From the IMG/VR virus record IMGVR_UViG_3300050821_006746, positions 1 through 64,000 of that record: a DNA stretch of 64,000 nt; one strand, given 5' to 3'. The position numbers were made by a program, and so were the translations under genes. The DNA is from a virus. This document shows, piece after piece, positions 48,316-55,800 of this stretch. The notes under the pieces were generated by a model, which saw only the letters and a list, made by a program, of their open reading frames with translations, was not told the DNA's origin and ran no database searches. How positions within the stretch are numbered: the stretch's first letter is position 1; every line of letters starts with the position of its first letter.

Positions 48316-48927
48316 ATGAATACGCTTATACCCATTGATCCAATAGAGAATAATTTGTTAGGCAAAAGCAATGAATGGTACACACCATCTCGCTATATCG
48401 AAGCCGCAAAGGAAGTCATGGGCGGCATTGATCTTGACCCTGCTTCGAGTGAAGTAGCCAACAAAACCGTTAAGGCAGCAAGGTACTACACCATCAAGGA
48501 TAACGGACTCCTGCAGGATTGGCGTGGTCGCATATGGCTCAATCCCCCCTATGGACGCACGACTAAAATGCAGGGTCAGCACAAAAGCACCATCTATTTG
48601 TTCACCGAAAAGCTTATCAAATCCTATGAGAGCGGAGAAGTTGAGCAAGCTATCATTTTGGCAACCACTGAGGTAAATGCGCGGTGGTTTTATCCGCTCT
48701 GGAAATATCCCATATGCATACCTGACCATCGCGTCCATTTTATGGTTGATGAGAAGCTAGAAAAATATTGCCAGATGTTTGGCACCTGCTTTGCTTACCT
48801 CGGACCTAACGAAGCTCATTTTACAGAAGTCTTTTCTAGGTTTGGGCATGTTGTCAAAACCGTTGGACGGCCAGCGCCAAAGCCAATAGCACTAGACCTG
48901 TGGACACCAACAAGCGTGGCACCGTAA
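48316..48927 (+). CDS. Phage Dam-type DNA N6-adenine methyltransferase
   Basis: A 203-residue protein of the Dam phage family: W-Y-T-P-S-R-Y-I-E-A-A, G-G-I-D-L-D-P-A-S-S, catalytic N-P-P-Y-G (about residue 75), H-R-V-H-F and F-C-x-A-Y-L-G region. It transfers a methyl group from SAM to adenine N6. It follows a CAGTGATCGGGAGGACATC leader. Self-methylation would protect phage DNA from host restriction or mark it for regulation. Confidence 0.85.
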   Translation: MNTLIPIDPIENNLLGKSNEWYTPSRYIEAAKEVMGGIDLDPASSEVANKTVKAARYYTIKDNGLLQDWRGRIWLNPPYGRTTKMQGQHKSTIYLFTEKLIKSYESGEVEQAIILATTEVNARWFYPLWKYPICIPDHRVHFMVDEKLEKYCQMFGTCFAYLGPNEAHFTEVFSRFGHVVKTVGRPAPKPIALDLWTPTSVAP

Positions 48928-54135: not shown

Positions 54136-54332
54136 TGGAAAAGAAACGCGGTGGACAGGAAGGCAACAAGAACGCTAAGCGGGCAAAACATCCCCGCTTA
54201 GCAGTCAGTTATTCGGGTGATCTCCTCGATTTAGCCTATGAAAAGTTGGCAGATCAAGGGAATACTGCACCTACAGAGGATCAAATAAAGGATTTTATCC
54301 GCGCAATGACAAGGAAGGGATTGGAGCAATGA
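54135..54332 (+). CDS. Small basic protein
   Basis: TAATG overlap with the previous stop (ATG 54129 also possible). 65 residues: K-K-R-G-G-Q-E-G-N-K-N-A-K-R-A-K is a disordered basic start typical of phage DNA-binding proteins, followed by helices. ATGA-coupled to the methylase. Confidence 0.55.
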   Translation: MEKKRGGQEGNKNAKRAKHPRLAVSYSGDLLDLAYEKLADQGNTAPTEDQIKDFIRAMTRKGLEQ

Positions 54333-55087
54333 AACCATTCACCTTTGGCTCACTTTTCTCTGGCGTTGGTGGTATTGATTTAGGCTTGGAGCGGGCTGGT
54401 ATGCAGTGCGCTTGGCAGGTGGAGATAGATGATTATGCAACAAAAGTACTTGAAAAACAGTGGCCCAATGTTACCCGGTTTCGAGACGTGCGAACCGTTG
54501 GAAAACGCAACCTGCCAACAGTTGACCTTCTGGCAGGTGGATTCCCCTGCCAACCTCATAGTCTCAATGGCAAAAGAAAAGCCAGCGAAGACGAACGCGA
54601 TCTCTGGCCAGAATTTCGCCGGCTTATTTGCGAGCTTAAACCCGCTTGGGTGTTGGCTGAAAACGTCATGGGGCTACTTAGTTCAGAAAATGGTCACTTC
54701 TTCGGCGGCATTCTCAGGGACTTGGCCGCGCTCAGGTATGATGCACAATGGCAAGTGCTACCAGCTTCCTCCTTTGGCGCACCACACCGAAGAGAAAGAG
54801 TCTTCATTGTGGCCTACCCTCAGAGCCTCTATGTGGAAAAATCGCAAATGGTCCAATCACAGAAAAGACCACCATTTCAATTTGGAAGAATATCTTCCAA
54901 CGATTTATCCAGAAATCAATGGAAAACCAATCAACCCTCATTTTCTGGAATGGATGATGGGATTCCCTATTGGGTGGACAGAAGTAAGGGACTCGGAAAC
55001 GCAGTTGTTCCACAAATAGCAGAGAGCATTGCTTATCGCATTCTCATGGCAGATGCAGCAAGCAAGGATGAAACGGAAGTAGCATAA
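54329..55087 (+). CDS. C5-cytosine DNA methyltransferase
   Basis: A 252-residue protein. Motif I F-S-G-V-G-G-I-D-L-G-L-E-R-A-G (10-24), motif IV G-G-F-P-C-Q-P-H-S with catalytic Cys74, motif VI A-E-N-V, motif VIII S-F-G-A-P-H-R-R-E-R-V-F-I-V-A and motif X G-L-G-N-A-V-V-P-Q-I-A are all present. The target-recognition region is short, so the enzyme is smaller than most Dcm-type methylases. It methylates cytosine C5, most likely for protection from restriction. Positions 54429-55019 also encode a second open frame. Confidence 0.9.
   Translation: MKPFTFGSLFSGVGGIDLGLERAGMQCAWQVEIDDYATKVLEKQWPNVTRFRDVRTVGKRNLPTVDLLAGGFPCQPHSLNGKRKASEDERDLWPEFRRLICELKPAWVLAENVMGLLSSENGHFFGGILRDLAALRYDAQWQVLPASSFGAPHRRERVFIVAYPQSLYVEKSQMVQSQKRPPFQFGRISSNDLSRNQWKTNQPSFSGMDDGIPYWVDRSKGLGNAVVPQIAESIAYRILMADAASKDETEVA
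54429..55019 (+). CDS. Overlapping frame inside the methylase gene, phage-family-like protein
   Basis: A complete 196-codon frame lies wholly inside the cytosine methylase gene in another plus-strand frame. Its product carries A-I-S-G-Q-N-F, T-W-P-R-S-G-M-M-H-N-G-K-C-Y-Q-L-P-P-L, S-S-L-W-P-T-L-R-A-S and F-L-E-W-M-M-G-F-P-I-G-W-T-E. This set of motifs I know from stand-alone phage proteins often annotated near cytosine methylases. The start has no strong ribosome site. It may be expressed, or it may show that this family arose by overprinting of dcm genes. Confidence 0.45.
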   Translation: MIMQQKYLKNSGPMLPGFETCEPLENATCQQLTFWQVDSPANLIVSMAKEKPAKTNAISGQNFAGLFASLNPLGCWLKTSWGYLVQKMVTSSAAFSGTWPRSGMMHNGKCYQLPPLAHHTEEKESSLWPTLRASMWKNRKWSNHRKDHHFNLEEYLPTIYPEINGKPINPHFLEWMMGFPIGWTEVRDSETQLFHK

Positions 55088-55173: not shown

Positions 55174-55800
55174 ATGTACGAGAAATCTTACCAAGCCTGG
55201 AAAGAGTTTAAGGAAAAGCTCTATGGAAAATCTAAGGAGCAATTCGAGGATGCAACGCCAGAAGAAAAGCGGGCGTTGCTAGACAAGATGAATGCTTCTG
55301 ACGATGAACAGATACAGCAGAAAGAGATAGAGCTAAATGAGCTATTTAGCAAAATGCAAGATCTTACTCAGGAAATAGCTCGTTTAACGGAATATTCAAC
55401 AGGACATCAAGTTAGGATCATTCAACACGCCACAAGTGCTCTCAATAATTTTGTTCGCAATGGCATCCCCGATATGTTCCATTTTCCACGAGAAGACATG
55501 GACAAAATTATTCGCGCCATAGAGCAGGATCGTCGTACTCAGGCGCAAAGAGAAACGCTTGAGGGAATGCCGTATGATGCCTATCTGAAAACAGAGGCAT
55601 GGCAAATAAGGCGTTCACAGGCTCTCAAAGACGCCAAGAATAGGTGTCAGTTATGTTACAGTACAAAACTTCTCAATGTCCACCACAAGACCTATGAGCG
55701 GCGCGGACACGAACTGCCAGAGGATTTGATTGTACTCTGCAACGATTGTCACGCAAAACATCACGACAAAATTGGCAAAAAGAATTCATGGAATTTTTAG
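55174..55800 (+). CDS. HNH endonuclease
   Basis: A 208-residue protein. Residues 1-100 are a long coiled-coil-like helix region. The C-terminal domain is HNH: W-Q-I-R-R-S-Q-A-L, zinc pair C-Q-L-C, L-N-V-H-H-K-T-Y catalytic His, D-L-I-V-L-C-N-D-C-H-A-K-H-H. It is likely a nicking or homing-type nuclease; with its position before the replication genes, a role in replication or packaging is possible. Confidence 0.82.
   Translation: MYEKSYQAWKEFKEKLYGKSKEQFEDATPEEKRALLDKMNASDDEQIQQKEIELNELFSKMQDLTQEIARLTEYSTGHQVRIIQHATSALNNFVRNGIPDMFHFPREDMDKIIRAIEQDRRTQAQRETLEGMPYDAYLKTEAWQIRRSQALKDAKNRCQLCYSTKLLNVHHKTYERRGHELPEDLIVLCNDCHAKHHDKIGKKNSWNF

Follow-up and report, generated by a model that had tools for sequence, protein, structure and literature searches.

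A long open reading frame lies inside the C5-cytosine methylase gene of this virus, on the same strand and in another frame, and the question raised by the locus is whether this second frame merely mirrors the codons of the methylase or is a gene in its own right and, if so, what its product might do. The window (the whole stretch of 64,000 nucleotides that was analysed) is part of a virus record of 109,141 bases. As claimed in a preliminary description of this DNA, the second frame is present at 54429-55019; it lies in the +1 frame of the methylase gene at 54329-55087. The motifs quoted in that description, as well as their codon-by-codon placement on the methylase blocks, were both correct. 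The features of the locus, in which the methylase is named alpha and the product of the second frame, ORF196, is named beta, are the following:

54329..55087, + strand: alpha, 252-aa C5-cytosine methylase with motifs I-VIII and X, proposed large subunit
54417..54431, + strand: Shine-Dalgarno-like AGGTGGAG (54417-54424) with the ATG of ORF196 at 54429; such starts are enriched in homologues
54429..55019, + strand: ORF196, ATG start, 196 aa, +1 frame of alpha, proposed small subunit (beta)
54723..54743, + strand: conserved beta block WPRSGMM (alpha frame: DLAALRYDA)
54807..54851, + strand: beta LWPT module LWPTLRASMWKNRKW, a repeated LPTP-type unit, proposed target-recognition module
54930..54983, + strand: beta INPHFLEWMMGFPIGWTE, proposed motif IX
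54989..55015, + strand: alpha motif X GLGNAVVPQ, where the tail of the beta frame reads DSETQLFHK

The methylase gene and its second frame

The alpha chain matched M.HhaI (E 1e-39) and PF00145 (E 9.5e-57), the latter only over profile positions 1-180 of 324. The catalytic PCQ and motifs I-VIII of PF00145 are present, as is GLGNAVVPQ, while motif IX is absent in-frame. ORF196 matched phrog_1008 (E 1.5e-27); a Pfam search with it returned no family, PF00145 included, Pfam and NCBIfam searches of beta gave nothing consistent, and a profile search against the PDB gave no match. When beta is laid on alpha, SGQNF falls on DLWPEF, WPRSGMM on DLAALRYDA, LWPT on VAYP, and NPHFLEWMMGFPIGWTE followed by DSET on GMDDGIPYWVDRSK-GLGNA. 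As for the surroundings, an HNH endonuclease gene lies immediately 3' of the methylase (window 55174-55800; phrog_8060, E 1.7e-11; phrog_119, E 2.1e-11), a second DNA methyltransferase-like gene is located at window 48316-48927 (phrog_111, E 4.1e-31), and the same virus also codes for a ParA-like protein, an FtsK-like protein and a large helicase.

The chance of such a frame was evaluated in 20,000 trials, in each of which the synonymous codons of the methylase gene were permuted among themselves and the encoded protein was left unchanged. The +1 frame was open for at least 196 codons in 26 of the 20,000 permutations, and the exact ORF196 stretch was left open in 11 of them; resampling by the codon usage of the window gave 15 and 6 in 20,000, respectively. 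Because of these counts, the odds of 1 in 10,000 given in the preliminary description have about the right magnitude as regards the exact stretch, and are somewhat optimistic for any such ORF. The open frame in one gene alone is suggestive and no proof; what is decisive for ORF196 is its conservation across homologues.

Conservation and distribution of the second frame

Eighty viral loci were collected by methylase alignment alone, the second frame playing no part in the selection. The +1 frame is open in all 80, for 125-380 codons, and beats synonymous shuffles at P ≤ 0.05 in 73 of them, compared to 6 of 80 for the +2 frame. In 129 pairs at 60-80% identity, the identity of four-fold degenerate third bases was 0.44 upstream of ORF196, 0.66, 0.62 and 0.94 across the overlap, and 0.45 downstream. 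Within the overlap, third bases are near-fixed at single methylase codons: Gly211 is GGG in 83 of 84 cases (19 expected), Val208 is GTG in 53/53, Arg207 is CGA in 52/55, Pro203 is CCC in 69/74 and Ala133 is GCC in 53/54. At conserved methylase residues before about residue 65 and after 230, by contrast, third bases are close to expectation at most sites, and the limits of the second-frame constraint coincide with those of the ORF. Between motifs VIII and X, where the sequence varies, conservation is higher in the +1 frame (0.29) than in the methylase frame (0.22); in one relative (L014) the +1 frame reads LWPTPRASMWKNRKW, as against LWPTLRASMWKNRKW in the window. The fixed third bases, together with the better conservation of the +1 frame, therefore indicate that the second frame is under selection at the protein level, and we consider it almost certain, judging from the compared sequences, that ORF196 is a real conserved overlapping gene. 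The overlap is a conserved feature of phages and prophages across many groups of bacteria, as seen in the homologues compared.

To see which methylases carry the second frame, C5-methylases were fetched as loci from 17 genomes, each picked for containing at least one overlap gene. The ordinary set (n = 28) comprised those with a Pfam match through the C-terminus in the 17 genomes, E. coli dcm and eight further ordinary types. A second frame beyond chance was found in none of these 28 ordinary C5-methylases, three of which gave short weak matches, and it was present in all 19 distinct genes whose Pfam match ends after motif VIII, with no in-frame motif IX. On a separate point, in the methylase ORF of one locus (L157 1143-2643) the first motifs are followed by an inserted HNH-like domain (AHHHDYNRPYDVMWLCQKCHHQWH), which recalls the out-of-frame HNH insertions of PMC11855218. 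A hidden HNH insertion of the ShiLan type in a phage methylase (PMC11855218) was considered for the window and rejected as a different phenomenon, the window methylase being without insertion.

These data bear on the explanation by which the open frame and its motifs only reflect conserved methylase codons and codon bias, with no translation. It is true that the beta motifs fall on conserved methylase blocks and that all database matches lie inside methylase genes. However, third bases are fixed at degenerate codons within the overlap only, the +1 frame is open and the +2 frame is not, ordinary C5-methylases share the catalytic blocks and yet have no second frame, the variable region is the better conserved in +1, the same modules occur in-frame elsewhere, and start codons preceded by a Shine-Dalgarno sequence are enriched. 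We give this explanation practically no chance of being right: an artefact of conserved codons is rejected by the synonymous constraint and by the ordinary-methylase controls, and with it the earlier alternative of a frequent out-of-frame artefact, given that the constraint is strong and confined to the overlap. The preliminary description had suggested testing synonymous sites across homologues, and had expected of a by-product that every database match would lie inside a methylase gene and that such constraint would be absent; the matches do all lie there, but the constraint was found, restricted to the overlap. Its central claim, that the same bases encode two proteins, is borne out, the second having the marks of a real conserved product.

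A tblastn search of ORF196 against phages gave 133 records, every one below 60% identity, and in the 11 annotated loci checked that had a methylase CDS beneath, the match lay in the +1 frame of that CDS in all 11. By using the second-frame protein as a query that requires the VEWLMG block, 160 loci were fetched (80 bacterial and 80 viral loci), and in 160/160 the match overlaps a methylase in +1, with 156 clean overlaps and 4 cases of shifted methylase frames; no stand-alone beta gene occurred among the loci fetched in this way. The stand-alone phage proteins evoked in the preliminary description are this overlapping ORF, and the birth of a stand-alone family by overprinting of dcm was rejected, since it does not hold as written when no stand-alone loci are found. 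Among 200 bacterial genomes from a single phylum, the second frame was present in 2, including the genome used as centre, and therefore it is probably mainly a feature of phages and prophages.

Annotation of the relatives follows one frame or the other. In Rctr197k, VLCpiM12a and W5_chr3 the annotated gene is the second frame only. In Klebsiella phage VLCpiM12a and Salmonella phage W5_chr3 (L341 1003-1878, L343 985-1914) this frame is labelled 'DNA methyltransferase' and 'Mte8-like protein', and no annotation marks the catalytic chain, a divergent relative, which lies in the other frame. PHROG 1008, which bears the label 'DNA methyltransferase', was matched by 73/73 of the second-frame proteins tested and PF00145 by 0/73; the label probably derives from the overlapping gene.

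The proposed translation start, motif IX and small subunit

The sequence AGGTGGAG is found four bases ahead of the ATG at 54429. Over 196 loci, Shine-Dalgarno sequences of at least five bases precede 62 of the 412 +1-frame ATG/GTG codons at methylase residues 34-66, compared to 0-2% in other frames or positions, and start codons so preceded are enriched just where the +1 constraint begins. This enrichment favours a predicted internal initiation over frameshifting.

The C-terminal block of beta, LNPxWVEWLMGFPxGWT, aligned to the canonical motif IX (iTpREaarLqgFPDdf) over 17 columns with P about 0.003 and an HHalign probability of 11%, a match which is weak by itself and could be convergence. 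We read the C-terminus of beta (NPHFLEWMMGFPIGWTE), which adjoins the variable LPTP modules, as a putative motif IX, and this reading is strengthened by natural fused and split variants. In actinophage methylases, for example that of Moonbeam, LPTP modules, EWMMGWPAGW and motif X are all in the methylase frame, and the HMM of the second frame finds such fused alpha-frame blocks (E 7e-12 on L009, and likewise in many relatives). In L070 and L198 beta runs on into motif X in its own frame; by its order of motifs, this second frame with motif X resembles the split of M.AquI. For the fused version in L313, a structure model was confident at motifs I-VIII and IX-X (pLDDT 92-97 in the IX-X part), with the LPTP stretch undefined, and matched M.HhaI (E 6e-15). 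The AlphaFold model of ORF196 alone was poor (pLDDT 61, pTM 0.28) and no fold match was found for it, as might be the case for a chain that needs a partner.

Over the 196 loci, the +1 frame holds 437 LPTP-like motifs, compared to 11 for frame 0 and 12 for the +2 frame; the gene lengthens by about 24 residues per module, and Thr130 of the LWPT module of beta is invariant in the alignments. Identical modules recur in differing combinations among actinophages, which suggests a shuffling of recognition units between these phages. Target recognition in C5-methylases is located between motifs VIII and IX (PMC3404938), and the LPTP-type modules, standing just before the proposed motif IX, are probably the target-recognition part. 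More tentatively, and with rather more doubt than belief on our side, the second frame could be a modular specificity subunit in which modules of ~24 aa are gained, lost and shuffled to alter the methylated sequence, while the catalytic chain accepts the variable linker that the same bases encode in its own frame. If true, a long same-strand overlap that is very widespread would carry a system for switching specificity, and split (IX-X) and fused forms would be linked to it by natural transitions.

Taken as a whole, ORF196 is very probably the small subunit, with motif IX and target recognition, of a predicted two-polypeptide m5C methyltransferase. Alpha, which holds the SAM-binding and catalytic motifs I-VIII as well as motif X at its C-terminus, would be the catalytic chain. 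Translation of beta would begin at an internal ATG served by a separate ribosome-binding site; beta would contribute motif IX (NPHFLEWMMGFPIGWT) and probably the target-recognition part with its LPTP-type modules, and by docking on alpha it would make the small DNA-binding domain complete, as in M.EcoHK31I. The complex would then methylate the phage DNA, presumably against host restriction. Protein-level conservation of both frames is shown by the comparisons; we infer that beta has a translation of its own, associates with alpha, carries the function of motif IX and sets the sequence specificity.

Two other explanations accept the constraint on the second frame. In one of them, beta would be an independent overlapping protein with another job, such as a regulator or inhibitor of the methylase or an anti-restriction protein, and no subunit. 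This fits with beta having no Pfam match and with its N-terminal half persisting in actinophages even when motif IX has moved into alpha; the same persistence in +1 of the N-terminal half, despite a motif IX in the alpha frame, means that beta does more than carry motif IX. On the other hand, in the loci and genomes compared, beta occurs only with methylases lacking the full Pfam C-terminus and never apart from them, and in fused forms its C-terminal part stands between motifs VIII and X, so that we regard an independent role as unlikely. In the other explanation, ribosomes would slip from the methylase frame to +1 in a programmed frameshift, giving a fusion of the alpha N-terminus and the beta C-terminus and no separate beta. 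A fusion too would constrain the +1 frame, and alpha followed by beta in one frame does occur in a few contigs (L108, L183), possibly through sequencing errors. But alpha shows protein-level conservation (identity 0.58) in its C-terminus, past the overlap, from which it follows that full-length alpha is made, and the Shine-Dalgarno start codons are enriched exactly at the onset of the +1 constraint; we find a frameshift very improbable.

Among the variant forms, the actinophage methylases L309-L340 have the second half of beta, LPTP modules and motif IX included, joined to the methylase frame, with the first half of beta still open and recognisable in +1 (E to about 1e-42). In L108 (2113-2851) and L183 (1858-2935) the methylase N-terminus continues into the beta frame as one ORF, owing either to an indel introduced by assembly or to a frame fusion of natural origin.

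Relation to known systems

Same-strand overlaps that are both long and conserved are rare, and proving them is difficult; here the constraint is visible codon by codon. As annotations choose a single frame, half of the enzyme regularly goes missing, and an annotated gene expressed with altered codons could yield a dead enzyme. The proposed two-chain enzyme would explain how C5-methylases without motif IX could work, and the overlapping, split and fused forms make a natural series for studying two proteins that share bases.

The +1 ORF inside the methylase of the Paenibacillus larvae phages Lily (LILY_63) and Shelly (gp56) was already listed as an 'internal gene'; it was recorded merely as such, as a hypothetical protein or as 'DNA methyltransferase', and neither a role nor a wider family for it was found in the paper searched. 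The two-polypeptide kind of enzyme is already known, whereas no description of the phage-wide overlap pattern, or of its spread, was found in the literature searched.

The catalytic chain is homologous (PF00145) to monomeric C5-methylases of phages and bacteria of the M.HhaI and M.HaeIII type, which, unlike the window gene, hold all motifs in one frame and have, in those tested, no +1 ORF beyond chance. M.AquI (CYCGRG) is a two-polypeptide m5C methyltransferase, in which, as proposed here, two chains make one enzyme. L070 and L198 resemble it, with motifs I-VIII on one chain and the recognition region, IX and X on the other; the window differs from it in having motif X on the large chain and an overlap of about 195 codons. 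Lee, Kam and Shaw are said to have reported in 1995 that an alternative, overlapping frame codes for the small chain of M.EcoHK31I (about 176 aa). The proposed small chain of the window is likewise in an overlapping frame of the large-chain gene. M.EcoHK31I (YGGCCR) is made up of two chains: the larger bears motifs I-VIII and X together with the predicted TRD, the smaller bears motif IX only (PMC3404938). The large chain of the window similarly has motifs I-VIII and X and is without IX; in contrast to the TRD in the large chain of M.EcoHK31I, the LPTP modules, our proposed TRD, are in the small chain, and the system of the window is found in phages. Likened by description, and not filed as a homologue, the window pair would be of this two-polypeptide kind and would work like M.EcoHK31I.
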